NCBI RefSeq assembly: GCF_017811755.1
Contig: NZ_JADDJF010000003.1
Location: 1 to 64,000, forward strand
DNA length: 64,000 nt
Source of the DNA: Pararhodobacter sp. SW119
GTDB taxonomy: Bacteria; Pseudomonadota; Alphaproteobacteria; Rhodobacterales; Rhodobacteraceae
Direction of reading: 5' to 3'
The notes beneath the pieces were generated by a model. The model saw nothing but the letters and a program-made list of their open reading frames with translations, was not told the origin of the DNA and searched no databases. Positions 579 through 50,039 of the stretch are shown here, piece after piece (position 1 is the stretch's first letter; every line of letters begins with the position of its first letter). Position numbers and translations under genes: made by a program.

Positions 579-1889
579 ATGGATGCCCCCATCTCTTCAA
601 CCTCGCTTCCGTTTCTGGCGGGCGCGGCGCTCGCCATTCTCTTCCTCCTGATCTGTTCCGCGATCTTCTCGGGGTCGGAAACGGCGCTGACCACCGCCAA
701 CCGCGGCAAGCTGCACAAGCGGGCCGAGCGCGGCGACAGGGGCGCACAGCGGGCGCTGCGGCTGACCGATGACAAGGAACGGCTGATCGGCGCGATCCTG
801 CTCGGCAACAATCTCGTCAACATCATGGCCGCCTCGCTCGCCACGATGATCTTCACCATCGTCCTGGGCGAGGGCGGCGTCGCCGTCGCGACCCTGCTGA
901 TGACCGCGCTGGTGCTGATCTTTTCCGAGGTGTTGCCCAAGACCTACGCGATCACCAATGCGGATACGGTGGCGCGGCGCGCGTCCGGCTTCATGACCCT
1001 CATCGTCCGGATCGCGGCGCCGGTCGTCACGGTGGTGCAGCTTCTGGTACGGGGTATCCTTCGCCTCTTCGGGGTGCAGGCGGCTGACGCGCATCCGTTC
1101 GCCGCGCACGAGGAGATCGCCGGCGCGATCTCGCTCCACCATTTCGAGGGTACGGTGGAGACGGCCGACCGGGACCGCCTGCTCGGGGCGCTTGACCTCG
1201 CGCAGCGCAGCATCGAGGAGGTCATGACCCACCGCCGGGACGTCGAGATGATCGATATCGACCGCCCGCCGACCGAGATCATCACCGCCGCCCTGGCGTC
1301 CGGGTACTCGCGCATCCCGCTCTGGCGCCGCTCGCCCGAGGACATCGTCGGTATCCTGCACACAAGGGACCTCGCGCGGGCCATGCACGCTGCGGTGCAA
1401 GCGGGCGGCGCCTCGGCGCTGGAGACGCTCGACATCGCCGCCATCGCCATGAAGCCCTCCTTCGTGCCCGAGGTGACAGGCCTCGACGATCAGCTTCATG
1501 CTTTCATGAAGAACAAGACCCATCTCGCCATCGTCATCGACGAATACGGCGCGATGCGGGGCCTGGTCACGCTGGAGGACATCCTTGAAGAGATCGTCGG
1601 CGACATCACCGACGAGCACGACACCCCCGTCGAGGCAGCGGTGAAGGCCGCGCCCGACGGCTCGGTCGCCGTGCGCGGCGGCATGAGCATACGCGAGGTG
1701 AACCGCGCCATGGGCTGGGACCTGCCCGAGGAAGATGCCGTCACCATGGCCGGGCTGGTGATCGATTTCGCCCGCCGCATCCCCGATCAGGGCGAGACCT
1801 TCGAGATCCACGGCCACGCGATCGAGGTCCTCGAACGGGATCAGACGCGGCTCACGCAGCTGCGGGTAAGAAAACTCCGGGAGGGTTGA
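579..1889 (+). CDS. CNNM/HlyC-CorC family membrane protein (DUF21 + CBS pair + CorC_HlyC)
   Basis: This 436-residue protein has an N-terminal DUF21 membrane region (about 1-190, with the family motif FSGSETALT near 30 and EVLPKTYA near 118). Two CBS domains follow (about 205-345; the second includes THLAIVIDEYGAMRG and LEDILEEIVGDI), then a C-terminal CorC_HlyC domain (about 350-432). The family is linked to Mg2+/Co2+ resistance or efflux at the inner membrane, with CBS domains as nucleotide sensors. The length is normal. The older name 'hemolysin' is historical and should not be taken literally. It stands alone on this strand, with an 11-bp repeat array about 160 bases downstream. Confidence 0.88.
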   Translation: MDAPISSTSLPFLAGAALAILFLLICSAIFSGSETALTTANRGKLHKRAERGDRGAQRALRLTDDKERLIGAILLGNNLVNIMAASLATMIFTIVLGEGGVAVATLLMTALVLIFSEVLPKTYAITNADTVARRASGFMTLIVRIAAPVVTVVQLLVRGILRLFGVQAADAHPFAAHEEIAGAISLHHFEGTVETADRDRLLGALDLAQRSIEEVMTHRRDVEMIDIDRPPTEIITAALASGYSRIPLWRRSPEDIVGILHTRDLARAMHAAVQAGGASALETLDIAAIAMKPSFVPEVTGLDDQLHAFMKNKTHLAIVIDEYGAMRGLVTLEDILEEIVGDITDEHDTPVEAAVKAAPDGSVAVRGGMSIREVNRAMGWDLPEEDAVTMAGLVIDFARRIPDQGETFEIHGHAIEVLERDQTRLTQLRVRKLREG

Positions 1890-2046
1890 TACCGCCGAGC
1901 CCATCACCCGACCCGCTTGCCCCGTCGCGCCGGGCGGGCGGGCATCGGTTGACGAAAGCTTGACGCGGCGCGCGGCCGGGCTGGCCGCGTACCGGGAAAA
2001 TGCCGGCCTGAGCCTTGTTTTGTTGGGATTCCGCCTGCCAGAAAGT

Positions 2047-2087
2047 GTATGGCAGGCGTATGGCAAACGTATGGCAAGTGTATGGCA
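2047..2087 (+). repeat. Four-unit tandem array, 11-bp period, core GTATGGCA
   Basis: Exact GTATGGCA octamers start at 2047, 2058, 2069 and 2080, that is, every 11 bases, separated by three variable bases. The last unit is followed by GTTT. A second array with the same period, unit number, strand and GTTT end lies at 49203-49243. The spacing of one helical turn would put all units on the same DNA face, as in iteron-like protein-binding arrays. No function is known to me. Confidence 0.85.
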
Positions 2088-2181
2088 GTTTGCGGCCATC
2101 TTGCCCCTTCGCGGGTCTTCCGGCGCCTACCGACCGGTCCGCCGGGCAAGTCGGCAGAGGCGCGCGGTGGTATGCCACCCC

Positions 2182-2219: not shown

Positions 2220-3722
2220 CTAGACACCCGCGCCCGCCTCGAACATCGGAAAGGTGACACCCAGCGCCCAGGCAAGGACAAGGCCGAGCCCCAGCCCCGC
2301 GGCGGCGGGCAGTCCGGTGCGCCGGCCCACCCAGCCTGACATCATGCCGAAGAGCAGGAAGAAAAGAACGATCACCGGCAGGAAGATGATCAGGAAGAAA
2401 AGCGCCTGGAAATCCAGCGCCACCGCCAGCATGAGCGAGGCCAGGAATGCACCGCGCGCGAGGATCACCCGCCACAACCGGCCGGTCCCCCCGCCGGTCA
2501 GCAGCGCGTCGCCCAGCATGAACGGGATCGCACCCAGCGCCAGGCCCGCGACCACCAGTATCCGCCCCGGATGCGGGAGAAAGGACGCGACATAGCGGTC
2601 GATCACGCCGCCCACGACCGCGATGCCGAACAGTGCGACCGCCCCCGCGATCCACCAGACCCGCGGCGGAAACTGACCGCTCAGCCTCCCGCGCCAGGCC
2701 AGGACGCCCAGGGTGATCGCGCCATAGAGGCCCAGGTGCAGCGCAAGGTAATCGGCCACCAGCACCGGCAGCAGGTCCGTCTCCAGCGGCCAGAGAAGAA
2801 GCGGCACCGCCAGCGCCGGCATCAGGGCCGCCAGCAGAAAATCACGCCTGCCCAGCTCGCCCTGACCCGCCGTGCCGCGCGCCGGCAGCGCCCGCGCGAG
2901 CGGCCAGCCCAGCGCGACCGTCGCCGCCAGCAGCAGCACGATCCAGCCGCCGCGCGCCGCGACCGGTCCGTCGCTCCGCCGTCCGAAACCGGCATCGAGC
3001 CAGTCTCGCGCCGCCCGCAATGCCGTGGGCGAGTAGAGCACGCCGACATGTTCGACATGCGGCGCAAGCACGGCGCGCCGCGCAACGCCCGTTTCCGGGT
3101 CGCCGACCGTCTCGCCCAGGCTGGCCGCGGGATCGATCTGCCGCACCGCGCGCAACGCTTCCTCGGCCAGACGGACCTCCCATTCGCCGGCGATGATCAG
3201 CAGGTTCGCGGGGGCATCGGCGGTCACCGACCCGCTGAACATCGAAATCGCGATGACCGCATCGCCGGCGGGCGCGTCCTGCGCCTGACGCACCACGATG
3301 TCCGACGCCATCGAGTGCCCGAGGTACGCCAGCCGCCCGTCAGCGCGCGGATGCGCCAGCGCCGCGCGCGCCACCCGCGCGGTTTCCTCCATTAGCAACC
3401 GTGTCGTCCCGCTGACCGAGGAGACATCGCCCGACATCGGACGCGGGTTCCGGCCGTGACCCTGGAAATCGAAGCTGACCGCCAGATACCCCGCCTGCGC
3501 CAGCGTCAGCGCGAAGGACTCCATCAAGTGCCGCGATCCCGCGAAGCCGTGCGCGATCACCACGACCGGGGCCGGCCCGCCCGCCGCGCGCAGATAGAGG
3601 GTCGCGGGCGTGCCCCCCTCGACCGTGATCGGCGCGATCTCCAGCCCCGCCCGGTCCGCCTCCAGCTTCCAGACCGACAGCGCCATCACCGTGAGCGCCA
3701 GGATCGCCAGAAAGAACCGCAT
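2220..3722 (-). CDS. Alpha/beta hydrolase with C-terminal multi-pass membrane domain
   Basis: This 500-residue protein starts with one hydrophobic helix (about 3-19), followed by an alpha/beta hydrolase domain (about 35-255) with oxyanion-side HGFAGS (58-63), the nucleophile elbow GHSMAS (Ser137) and a late His in APHVEHVGVL. From about 265 to the end there are roughly seven or eight hydrophobic helices. The hydrolase part resembles dienelactone-hydrolase/serine-esterase types and is probably extracytoplasmic, tethered by both ends. The substrate is unknown. The gene stands alone, with a hairpin at its 3' end. The fusion to a large membrane domain is uncommon and is the main point of interest. 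Confidence 0.75.
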   Translation of the reverse strand: MRFFLAILALTVMALSVWKLEADRAGLEIAPITVEGGTPATLYLRAAGGPAPVVVIAHGFAGSRHLMESFALTLAQAGYLAVSFDFQGHGRNPRPMSGDVSSVSGTTRLLMEETARVARAALAHPRADGRLAYLGHSMASDIVVRQAQDAPAGDAVIAISMFSGSVTADAPANLLIIAGEWEVRLAEEALRAVRQIDPAASLGETVGDPETGVARRAVLAPHVEHVGVLYSPTALRAARDWLDAGFGRRSDGPVAARGGWIVLLLAATVALGWPLARALPARGTAGQGELGRRDFLLAALMPALAVPLLLWPLETDLLPVLVADYLALHLGLYGAITLGVLAWRGRLSGQFPPRVWWIAGAVALFGIAVVGGVIDRYVASFLPHPGRILVVAGLALGAIPFMLGDALLTGGGTGRLWRVILARGAFLASLMLAVALDFQALFFLIIFLPVIVLFFLLFGMMSGWVGRRTGLPAAAGLGLGLVLAWALGVTFPMFEAGAGV

Positions 3723-6081: not shown

Positions 6082-7038
6082 ATGTCTGTACACCGCTTCT
6101 TGGCGCTTTCCACAGGTCCTCTGTCGCTGGCCCTGACCGTGACGTTGGCCGGCATCGCCCCGGCGGCGGCGTCGAGCGTGACCTACCACGCGCTGCTGGA
6201 ATCCGTCGCCGATGCGCCGACCGGCAGCGAGGTTTACCGGCTGAGCTATCCCGACGTCGACGCGGTGCAGGCCGGCGCGTTCACCTTCGCCGGTTTCACG
6301 CAGATTGGCATTTCGGCGGACTTCTCGATCGCCGGGATGGCCTATGACGGTGCCTTTCAGGTACTGCTGGAATCCGACGCCGACGCGCCCACCGGCAACG
6401 AGGTCTACCTGCTGAGCTATCCCACGATCGATGCGGTGCAGGCTGGCGCGTTCACCTTCGCCGGCTTCACGCAGATCGGCATCTCGGCAGGTTTCTCGAT
6501 CGCCGGGCTGACCTATGACGGCGCATTCCGGATACTGCTCGAATCCGACACCGACGCGCCCACCGGCAGCGAGGTCTATCTGCTGAGCTATTCGGACCGG
6601 GCGGCGCTGATCGCGGGAACCTTCTTCGAGGCGGGATTCACCCAGATAGGCATCTCGGACGGCTTTTCGATCGCCGGCTTCACCTATGACGGGGCCTATC
6701 AGGTGCTGCTGGAATCCGACACCGACGCACCCACCGGCAGCGAGGTCTATCGATTGAGCTATCCCACGATCGACGCGCTGAAGGCCGGCGCATTCACCTT
6801 CGCTGGGTTCACGCAGATCGGCATCTCGGAGGGCTTCTCGATCCGGGCGTTCGAGGCGGTCGCGACCGCCGCGCCGCCACCGGACGGCAGCGGGCCGGGC
6901 ACCTCGCCCGCGCCGATACCGCTGCCGGCGGCCGGCTGGCTGCTTCTGGCCGGCCTCGGGTTGCTGGGCGCGGTGCGGCGTGGCGGGGGCGACGTTGGAC
7001 AGGGGCTTGCCTGCGCTTCGGCCCTTCCCCCGCGGTAA
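6082..7038 (+). CDS. Exported four-repeat protein with VPLPA-CTERM-like sorting tail
   Basis: The 318 residues comprise a signal peptide (about 1-31, cleavage near APAAAS), four tandem repeats of 57 residues (about 35-262), a Pro/Gly linker, and a C-terminal IPLPAAGW plus hydrophobic helix and RR. Each repeat carries LLES near its start (38, 95, 152, 209), then DAPTGSEVY, LSYP, AGFTQIGIS, FSIAG and YDGA. The tail is that of VPLPA-CTERM proteins, which are exported and processed by an exosortase in Rhodobacterales. Unusually, 18 residues follow the RR cluster, whereas such tails normally end within a few residues. The repeat fold is not one I can name; a beta-rich surface protein is likely. 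GGGGAGG lies before the ATG. Confidence 0.8.
   Translation: MSVHRFLALSTGPLSLALTVTLAGIAPAAASSVTYHALLESVADAPTGSEVYRLSYPDVDAVQAGAFTFAGFTQIGISADFSIAGMAYDGAFQVLLESDADAPTGNEVYLLSYPTIDAVQAGAFTFAGFTQIGISAGFSIAGLTYDGAFRILLESDTDAPTGSEVYLLSYSDRAALIAGTFFEAGFTQIGISDGFSIAGFTYDGAYQVLLESDTDAPTGSEVYRLSYPTIDALKAGAFTFAGFTQIGISEGFSIRAFEAVATAAPPPDGSGPGTSPAPIPLPAAGWLLLAGLGLLGAVRRGGGDVGQGLACASALPPR
6184..6867 (+). repeat. Four tandem 171-bp coding repeats
   Basis: Four in-frame copies of a 171-bp unit encode the 57-residue repeats. DNA similarity stays high between copies (for example the shared stretch coding AGFTQIGIS), pointing to recent duplication or gene conversion. Copy 3 is the most diverged (SDRAALIAGTFFE). 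Confidence 0.85.
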
Positions 7039-47311: not shown

Positions 47312-49165
47312 ATGCAGCCGCCCCCCACGCCTGTGCCTTCGCCATCTTCCGCGCCGCCACCCGCGCCGCCGCCCTCCGCCCCTGTCGATCCCGGGCCGCG
47401 CCCCTCGGACCGCGTCCTTATGGACTGGCTCTGGCGCGGCCATGTCCGCCAGCGGCTCGGCTTTCTTCTGGTCGCCGTCGTCCTGATGGCGATCGACGGC
47501 AGCATGCTCGGCGCGCTCTCGCTGATGATCGAGCCGCTTTTCGACGAGGTTCTGGTCGGCGGGCGCGGCGGCCTCATCGGCGTCGTGGCCGCGGGGATCG
47601 CCGGGGTCTTCATCATCCGCGGCGTCACCTCGCTGATCCACAAGACGATGATCGCCTGGCTCTCGGAAAAGGTGATGGCCGAGTTGCAGCAGCAGCTTCT
47701 GGCGCATCTGATGCGGCTCGACCACGGGTTCTTCCACCGCCATCCGCCCGGCGCGCTGATCGAACGTGTGCGCGGCGACAGCCAGGCGATGGGCGGGCTG
47801 TTCACCGCGGTTCTGCCGAAGCTGGCGCGCGACGGGATTTCGGTGGTCGCCCTGCTGGGCGCGGCGATCTGGATCGACTGGCGCTGGACGCTGATCGCGC
47901 TGCTGGGCATCCCGCTTCTGATCCTGCCGATCATGGTGCTGCAGCGGATCGTGCGGCGGATGGGGGGCGACGCACGCATTTCGGCCGCCGATGCCGCGAC
48001 GCGCCTGGACGAGATCTTCCACGGCATCTTCACCATCCAGCGCAGCGGGCTGGAGCGGCACGAGGCCGGCCGCTTCGAGCGCGTGCTCAGCCGGTTCCGC
48101 AAGGCGCAGGTGCGCACGGTGGCGGGCGGCGCGGGCATGGGGTCGCTGGCCGATCTGGTCGCGGCGATGGGCTTCGCGCTGGTCCTGATCTACGGCGGCG
48201 CGCAGATCGCGGCGGGCGAGCGGACGGTCGGGCAGTTCATGGCGTTCTTCACCGCTTTTGCGTTACTTATCGAGCCGTTGCGCAGCCTGAGTGCGCTGAA
48301 CGGGGCGTGGCAGACGGTGTTGGCGAGCCTGGAGCGGGTGTACGGGCTGTTGCAGATCCGGCCGCGGATCGCCCAGCCGACGCCGCCGCTGGCGCCCCTG
48401 CCCACGCGGTCCCAGACGACCGTCCGGTTCGAGGGGGTGGAGTTCGCCTATGACAGCGAGCCAGTGCTGCGCGGCTTCGATCTGGAGGCGCGGGCAGGGC
48501 AGACGACGGCGCTGGTCGGTCCCTCGGGGGCGGGCAAGACCACGGTCTTCACGCTGCTCACGCGGCTGGCCGATCCGCAGGCCGGGCGCATCACCATCGG
48601 CGGGCACGACATCGCCCGGATGGACCTGCGCGGGTTGCGCGACCTCTTCGCCGTGGTCGCCCAGGACAGCGCGCTCTTCGACGAGACCCTGCGCGACAAC
48701 GTGTTGATGGGCGCGACCGGCGTCAGCGACGCGCGGTTGCGCGAAGTCCTTGATGCGGCTCATGTTTCCGAGTTCGCCGCGCAACTGCGCGAGGGGCTGG
48801 AAACCCGCGTCGGACCGCGCGGATCGGCGCTCTCCGGGGGTCAGCGGCAGCGCGTCGCGATTGCCCGCGCGCTCTTGCGCGACGCGCCGATCCTGCTTCT
48901 GGACGAGGCGACCTCGGCGCTCGATGCGCGCTCGGAATCGCTGGTGCAGGAGGCGCTGGACCGGCTGGCGGAGGGGCGCACGACGCTAGTGATTGCCCAT
49001 CGGTTGACGACGGTGCGGCGGGCGGACAAGATCGTGGTGATGGAGCGCGGCGTGGCCATCGAGGAGGGCGATCACGCCACGCTGATCGCCCGCAGCGGCG
49101 CCTATGCGCGCCTGCATGCACTGCAATTTTCGGGCCCCGAAGCGGGTCAGCCCCCCCCCGGTTGA
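47312..49165 (+). CDS. ABC exporter (fused membrane and ATPase domains, MsbA-like)
   Basis: This 617-residue half-transporter has a Pro-rich N-terminus (about 1-32), six helices (about 45-340) and an ATPase with Walker A GPSGAGKTT, signature LSGGQRQR, Walker B ILLLDEATSALDARS and VIAHRLTTVRRADKIVV. A homodimer would flip lipid or export a hydrophobic compound across the inner membrane; the resemblance to MsbA/lipid flippases is general. It stands alone, and the second 11-bp array follows its stop codon by 37 bases. Confidence 0.92.
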   Translation: MQPPPTPVPSPSSAPPPAPPPSAPVDPGPRPSDRVLMDWLWRGHVRQRLGFLLVAVVLMAIDGSMLGALSLMIEPLFDEVLVGGRGGLIGVVAAGIAGVFIIRGVTSLIHKTMIAWLSEKVMAELQQQLLAHLMRLDHGFFHRHPPGALIERVRGDSQAMGGLFTAVLPKLARDGISVVALLGAAIWIDWRWTLIALLGIPLLILPIMVLQRIVRRMGGDARISAADAATRLDEIFHGIFTIQRSGLERHEAGRFERVLSRFRKAQVRTVAGGAGMGSLADLVAAMGFALVLIYGGAQIAAGERTVGQFMAFFTAFALLIEPLRSLSALNGAWQTVLASLERVYGLLQIRPRIAQPTPPLAPLPTRSQTTVRFEGVEFAYDSEPVLRGFDLEARAGQTTALVGPSGAGKTTVFTLLTRLADPQAGRITIGGHDIARMDLRGLRDLFAVVAQDSALFDETLRDNVLMGATGVSDARLREVLDAAHVSEFAAQLREGLETRVGPRGSALSGGQRQRVAIARALLRDAPILLLDEATSALDARSESLVQEALDRLAEGRTTLVIAHRLTTVRRADKIVVMERGVAIEEGDHATLIARSGAYARLHALQFSGPEAGQPPPG

Positions 49166-49202
49166 GCGACGTTCCGACCGCGCAAAACCCCCGCCGGCAG
49201 GG

Positions 49203-49243
49203 GGCTGGCAAGGGGCTGGCAAGCGTATGGCAAGCGTATGGCA
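49203..49243 (+). repeat. Four-unit tandem array, 11-bp period, second locus
   Basis: GGCTGGCA at 49203 and 49214 and GTATGGCA at 49225 and 49236 repeat every 11 bases; the last is followed by GTTT. Period, unit number, strand and end match the array at 2047-2087. The first two units share GGCA with the core and differ at the start. It also lies between convergent genes. Confidence 0.8.
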
Positions 49244-49403
49244 GTTTCGCGCGTTGCGTTCAGACGCCGGTAGGGAACCGCCCCGGCGCACCCGCGTCCG
49301 CGCCACGGGGCGGGTGGGTGGGCGTGGCGTGGACGCGGGTGCGGGTGCGGCGGGGCCCGGCGGCGGCGGGTCCGTCCGGGCCCCGTTTGGCCGTCTGGCG
49401 CGA

Positions 49404-50039
49404 TCAGTCCAGCGGGGCCGGGGCTGTCGGGGCGCCGGTGTCGCCGACCGCGGGGGCCGGAAGGTCCGAACGGTCGCGGAAGGTGTATTCCGGTGCCGCG
49501 TCGGCTTGCTCGCGCGTCAGGTCCATCTGGATCTCGCGCGCATCGAAGTCGATCTGCAGTTCCTCGAAATGGACCGCGATCTGTTTGGCCCCGATGCCGA
49601 GGAAGCCACCGACGGCCAGGATCGCGGCGCTGATCTCGTTCGTGTCCTCGTCGAAGATCAGGTCGTTGATCCGACCGATGTTCTCGCCTGTGCGCGAGTA
49701 GACCCGCGAACCGGTGATCCAGTCGACGCGCAACTCGTTCGGCGCCTGTTCGCGCACGATCGCCTCGCTGGGCGGTGGCGCTGTGTCCTCGGTCGCTTCC
49801 ATCGGCGCGGCCTCGGGTTCAGACTGGGGCTCAGACTCGGACTGCGTATCGGGCAGGGTATCGGCCTGCTCGGTATCGGCCTGGTCGACATCGGTCTGGT
49901 CGACATCGGTCTGGTCGGTATCGGTCTGCTCGTCGGCAGGCGGGTCCGCAGGTATCTGGGTGGCGGGGGGATCCTGCGCCAGGGCCGATCCGATCAGGAA
50001 CGGCGCGATCAGCGCGGATGTGGAAAGAAGGGTACGCAT
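49404..50039 (-). CDS. Exported PRC-barrel domain protein
   Basis: The 211 residues have a signal peptide (about 1-22, ALIAPFLIGSALAQ), a low-complexity acidic stretch (about 25-85) of Asp/Gln/Thr repeats such as DQTDVDQTDVDQAD, then a PRC-barrel domain (about 100-175: RVDWITGSRVYSRTGENIGRINDLIFDED and EISAAILAVGGFLGIGAKQIAV). PRC barrels in periplasmic proteins are little studied and may be structural. GGAGGATG precedes the ATG. Related exported PRC-barrel proteins are frequent in Rhodobacterales. Confidence 0.85.
   Translation of the reverse strand: MRTLLSTSALIAPFLIGSALAQDPPATQIPADPPADEQTDTDQTDVDQTDVDQADTEQADTLPDTQSESEPQSEPEAAPMEATEDTAPPPSEAIVREQAPNELRVDWITGSRVYSRTGENIGRINDLIFDEDTNEISAAILAVGGFLGIGAKQIAVHFEELQIDFDAREIQMDLTREQADAAPEYTFRDRSDLPAPAVGDTGAPTAPAPLD
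49861..49935 (-). repeat. Five 15-bp coding repeats
   Basis: Near-identical 15-mers beginning TCGGYCTG start at 49861, 49876, 49891, 49906 and 49921 (plus-strand view) and encode the Asp/Gln/Thr pentapeptides of the PRC-barrel protein. The in-frame microsatellite could vary in copy number. Confidence 0.85.

Follow-up and report, generated by a model that had tools for sequence, protein, structure and literature searches.

Among described systems, those closest to the arrays reported here are the REP/BIME elements of enteric bacteria and Pseudomonas, the STRR repeats of heterocystous cyanobacteria, the Pho and CtrA boxes, and the parC repeats of plasmids. REP/BIME elements resemble them in their dispersed intergenic copies after genes or inside operons, their mosaic composites, their avoidance of divergent gaps and their probable protein binding. 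REP units, however, are palindromes tied to RAYT transposases, whereas the arrays are built of an 11-bp direct repeat. The many intergenic copies and mosaic composites of REP/BIME are found here as well; the palindromic unit is not, the repeat being a direct 11-mer that folds near the shuffled expectation, and CATATG words, locally palindromic, are yet repeated head to tail. A RAYT-driven REP was rejected because the Y1 transposase (PF01797) is absent from seven other array-bearing genomes: it is matched in the source genome (G000) only, and not in G175, G285, G074, G116, G191, G145 or G067. The Y1 (RAYT-type) matches of the source genome lie at C35:63425-63682 and C143:10-93 (loci L293-L295), with none in the 11 relatives tested.

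STRR repeats are likewise dispersed short intergenic tandem repeats, of unknown function. They consist of heptamer units without helical pitch, and no word replacement at conserved sites is known among them. Short intergenic tandem units also characterize the present family (47 arrays in 1.62 Mb, see below), with a pitch of 11 in place of the heptamer. Pho and CtrA boxes have the same 11-bp direct-repeat spacing, some words of congeners fit TGTCAT-N5-TGTCAT, and GGTTAA half-sites lie near the arrays. Unlike these boxes, the arrays stand off promoters, comprise three to seven units, reach up to ~85 copies per genome and vary in word by lineage. On plasmid parC sites, ParR forms head-to-tail protein arrays on 11-bp repeats, at single loci beside its own gene. 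The repeat length is shared, but the head-to-tail protein is only inferred here, and the arrays are dispersed over chromosomes.

Arrays of the window and of the source genome

The window (64,000 nucleotides of Pararhodobacter sp. SW119, contig NZ_JADDJF010000003.1) contains two arrays, whose features are as follows.

579..1889, forward strand: CNNM/CorC-type transporter gene, upstream neighbour of array 1
1947..1974, forward strand: left box of array 1, GGTTGACGAAAGCTTGACGCGGCGCGCG (TTGA-N7-TTGA, also 11-bp phased)
2012..2029, forward strand: conserved middle segment of array 1, GCCTTGTTTTGTTGGGAT, from the alignment of congener copies
2030..2046, forward strand: conserved entry of array 1, TCCGCCTGCCAGAAAGT (a degenerate first unit), common to congener copies and other own copies
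2047..2087, forward strand: array 1, four GTATGGCA units at 11-bp pitch (starts at 2047, 2058, 2069 and 2080), then GTTT; exact two-unit matches at 2047, 2058 and 2069
2088..2130, forward strand: right flank of array 1, beginning GTTTGCGGCCAT, partly kept in congener copies (alignment)
2220..3722, reverse strand: alpha/beta-hydrolase gene, convergent neighbour of array 1
47420..49165, forward strand: MsbA-like ABC transporter gene, upstream neighbour of array 2
49203..49243, forward strand: array 2, GGCTGGCA, GGCTGGCA, GTATGGCA, GTATGGCA at 11-bp pitch
49244..49247, forward strand: GTTT end of array 2
49288..49342, no strand assigned: hairpin with a perfect 20-bp stem (CGCACCCGCGTCCGCGCCAC) in the convergent gap of array 2, 45 bp past the array, from folding
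49404..50039, reverse strand: PRC-barrel protein gene, convergent neighbour of array 2

The original prediction described array 1 as four exact 11-base units closed by GTTT, with which the sequence agrees, and array 2 as its like. The latter is true of the period, the unit count and the GTTT end, but units 1 and 2 of array 2 are GGCTGGCA and only units 3 and 4 are GTATGGCA; a decayed extra unit lies ahead of it at 49192-49199. Both arrays do occupy convergent gaps, between the CNNM/CorC-type and alpha/beta-hydrolase genes and between the MsbA-like and PRC-barrel genes, respectively. Chance, already thought very unlikely, is excluded by the five window matches to the two-unit pattern (up to three mismatches), against 0.11 expected. 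The left box of array 1 recurs at about equal distance before arrays in three own and many congener copies. One other sampled array (C101:29170) is also trailed by a hairpin, related to that at 49288-49342. The window further holds a tandem repeat of 171 bp in 3.8 copies at 6193-6843, which is probably coding.

Across the source genome (4.51 Mb, 192 contigs), three TGGCA words at 11-bp pitch give 199 matches, split 84 to 115 between the strands; the reversed control of this pattern gives none in the whole genome. Fifty arrays of three to six units were counted in a 1.62 Mb sample, which scales to ~85 genome-wide; the sample was picked partly for arrays, so that array contigs are enriched in it, and its genes were called with a home-made caller. 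It is therefore misleading to regard the window arrays, 47 kb apart, as a matched pair, and their common strand means little, because the ~85 arrays of the genome occupy both strands. In an unbiased scan of the same 1.62 Mb for fourfold repeats of any 4-mer at pitches of 7 to 20, 47 intergenic arrays fall at pitch 11 and 0-3 at each of the other pitches; in coding sequence, repeats are commonest at multiples of three. The spacing is equally strict between TATGGCA words, all 160 pairs within 60 bp being 11, 22, 33 or 44 bp apart.

GTTCCGAACG, or a sequence close to it, forms the right flank of 31 of 49 sampled copies, many of which run on into a ~290-bp mosaic with two hairpin modules. These modules are found without arrays, and arrays without modules; unit order is the same in most copies. 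Array 1 belongs to a different subfamily, with the left box GGTTGACGAAAGCTTGACG ~100 bp upstream that recurs in ~15 congener copies. A hairpin module GGGGGGCGCTGCCCCCC..CCCCCCGGGATATTT follows stop codons at own-genome loci including L043, L066 and L079; several congeners that have no array after the orthologous ABC-transporter gene carry modules of a similar kind there, as if in the same slot. The original prediction took membership of an ordinary mobile repeat, or restriction to random sites of this genome, to refute a conserved binding role: many own copies do sit in a dispersed mosaic repeat, but arrays also occur outside the source genome.

Words and sites across the Rhodobacteraceae

In many Rhodobacteraceae genera, arrays of this family are spread over the genome. 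Their pitch is fixed, their words are specific to the lineage, and some occupy orthologous positions directly behind stop codons or between the genes of an operon. The family is patchy across genera, and the pitch of 11 is constant. The unit words of different lineages include CATATGANNNN, CGTATGGNNNN, GTATGGCANNN and GTCTGGCANNN, and a word series runs through CATATGA, CGTATGA, CGTATGG, CGTATGGCA and CGTCTGGCA. Of 394 family genomes, a few have TGGCA-word arrays, chiefly G175, G285, G074, G116, G191 and G145 besides the source genome; Rhodobacter calidifons, Tabrizicola soli, Puniceibacterium sediminis and a Marinosulfonomonas bin are among the named carriers. Within the genus they are present in 3 of 18 genomes and absent from 15, where other words were only partly searched. 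Such other words, which came to light via the backwards control of a looser pattern, give four-unit matches in G067 (62), G140 (44), G341 (17), G197 (9) and G019 (9); scans for TGGCA alone underestimate the distribution, and genomes scored empty are empty for the searched words only. CGTATGG cores in G067 are 11, 22 or 33 bp apart, the exception being one array with a 12-bp step. Congener copies of the array 1 subfamily vary in word between and within arrays (GTATGGCA, GTATGACA, GTAGGAC, GTACACCA, GGGTGGCA), with mixing within single arrays in two congeners, and keep pitch 11 throughout.

Orthologous positions were established by blastp between flanking proteins; MAPEG and some other gene names were read from the sequence by eye. 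An array lies downstream of gltD in eight genera, with TGGCA-type words in the source genome, G175, R. calidifons, Tabrizicola and G285, and CATATG words in G197, G019 and the genome of locus L393. An NCBIfam match confirmed gltD, with gltB as the next gene in G197; between genera, the downstream neighbour varies and the array stays. Words are likewise replaced in the manganese pyrophosphatase (PPase)/HAD, lpdA/MAPEG and cobH/cobL gaps. Further common sites are the livG-livH, leuC-leuD and serC-serA gaps, the last with arrays in opposite orientation in two genera, and sdaA and argF are also among the neighbours. The amino-acid flavour of these neighbours (gltD, serA, sdaA, liv, leu) may offer a lead. 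Array 2 has an ortholog in congener G401, a four-unit array of GGGTGGCA words after the same ABC-transporter gene, and no array follows the gene orthologous to that of array 1 in the congeners examined.

Conserved places and pitch, combined with replaced words, suggest function through helical phase and local recognition, and hence a protein array at the DNA level. The arrays may thus be helically phased DNA sites, of some three to seven short words every 11 bp, which a DNA-binding protein would fill head to tail along one helix face, as OmpR/PhoB-family regulators or wrapping proteins do. The recognition word of this putative protein would drift between lineages and the sites would follow, probably working as architectural or nucleoid-type sites kept off promoters. 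We favour this reading tentatively, as plausible but well short of secure. Cooperative binding on one face had already been proposed from the window alone; the strict pitch, and its persistence at orthologous sites while words change, speak for that idea, in which the protein is still a supposition. The accompanying suggestion of a transcription roadblock is unlikely, and a strong one implausible, because arrays lie inside operons (gltD-gltB, livG-livH, leuC-leuD, serC-serA and cobH-cobL gaps). Several observations count against the protein model: no binding protein was identified for the arrays; TGGCA arrays are missing from most genomes tested, including those 15 of the genus; many own copies lie within a mosaic repeat able to spread without function; and words mixed within an array in two congeners do not sit easily with one strict recogniser.

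The main and serious rival, which is quite possible if on balance doubtful, sees in the arrays a dispersed tandem repeat that is selfish or neutral, comparable to REP/BIME or the cyanobacterial STRR. Slippage would multiply the units, copies would spread intergenically, gene conversion would homogenise the words, and selection would only purge copies from promoters and genes. The ~290-bp composite with its hairpin modules, which also occur separately, fits such a repeat, as do the like unit order of most copies, the patchiness within one genus, the avoidance of divergent gaps, and words that are common to different loci and mixed within arrays. Slippage, however, creates indels and the pitch is almost invariant, and eight genera keep arrays at the same sites while words are replaced.

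Under the protein reading, the arrays could represent a previously undescribed class of site on Rhodobacteraceae chromosomes, with one-helical-turn arrays in fixed places near core genes. The protein reading them would have its word replaced genome-wide between lineages, site and recogniser evolving fast as a pair, and might belong to an unrecognised nucleoid-organising system; this extension is put forward with some doubt. Literature searches on the sequence words and on Rhodobacter/Roseobacter repeats returned nothing relevant. In the usual bacterial case, binding sites change singly and the recogniser stays, whereas here dozens per genome seem to switch word together, with pitch and places retained. 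If a protein lies behind the arrays, a recogniser and its sites all over the genome would be co-evolving fast in bacteria, and the arrays would give access to chromosome organisation in a large bacterial family. Failing that, something else keeps a dispersed repeat at exactly one helical turn, which would likewise call for an explanation.

Gene context and regulatory, RNA and polarity readings

Of 45 classifiable intergenic arrays in the source-genome sample, 24 are convergent (25.6% expected, p = 9e-5, or ~1e-4) and three divergent (25.3% expected, p = 0.003). The association with convergent gaps noticed in the window is therefore real in this genome but no general rule: the convergent gaps of other genera show no enrichment (15/84 vs 17%), and their divergent gaps are depleted (10/84 vs 32%). 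Arrays there tend to follow stop codons directly or to separate operon genes; those in tandem gaps are closer to the stop codon than to the start by 45 to 14 (p = 6.5e-5), with no preference in orientation to the tandem neighbours (28 to 31). GTTAAC occurs within 60 bp downstream at 11-bp-phased distances in 23 of 93 arrays, against ~1% expected, although these belong to few copy families and are not 23 independent events; with that limit, the phasing agrees with a protein array at the DNA level. The flanks of arrays L111-L250 carry GTTAAC and GGTTAA half-sites at 11-bp-phased distances, resembling CtrA boxes.

It is unlikely that the arrays are ordinary regulator sites for adjacent genes, whether OmpR/PhoB-type (Pho boxes, CtrA boxes) or Lrp-type for amino-acid genes. 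OmpR/PhoB-family binding suits 11-bp direct repeats, TGACA words read as TGTCAT-N5-TGTCAT on the opposite strand, the GGTTAACN4GGTTAA beside arrays suits TTAA-N7-TTAA, and the common sites include gltD, serC/serA, sdaA, livG/livH, leuC/leuD and argF. The 11-bp direct half-sites are thus present, but the regulon-promoter position is not, gene ends and intercistronic gaps being favoured over promoters. Moreover, the gltD array remains where the downstream neighbour changes between genera, the copy number far exceeds a normal regulon of four-site arrays, and the array words are unlike the CenR motif, TGA-N8-TGA (PMC9275681). Mimicry of a sigma-54 promoter (-24/-12) by TGGCA-N6-TGGCA was rejected, as the CATATG-word gltD arrays keep the pitch and lose the GG/GC.

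An RNA element (a 3'-end terminator, a stabiliser or a protein-binding RNA array) is considerably less probable still. Arrays do lie close behind stop codons, and a TGGCA/TGCC inverted pair ends some of them, but sense and antisense arrays are equally common by tandem genes and folding is near the shuffled expectation (mean z of the groups from +0.5 to -1.9); RNA readings are weakened by this neutral orientation and plain folding. Rfam returned only tRNA matches in the window and six further stretches. Neither window array has a terminator-like signal, and an intrinsic terminator was discarded because a GC-rich hairpin with a T run is missing at both; a rut-like role for the C-rich strand was given up, orientation being unbiased. 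A KOPS- or Ter-like signal of replication or segregation polarity is scarcely credible, since the genome-wide spread, and a stretch of genome G175 (1.99-2.92 Mb) without two-unit matches, are set against mixed strand use and a gap that is not significant for ~25 arrays (estimate ~0.06). In a single-contig genome, arrays divide ~11 to ~14 between the strands, without evident bias.

Bacteroidales and Anaerolineae bins (loci L148, L149, L170, L180 and similar) have GTATGGCA 11-bp arrays of their own, with different linkers. These matches, whose linkers and flanks differ, were set aside as probably unrelated, and may be independent examples of the 11-bp pitch.
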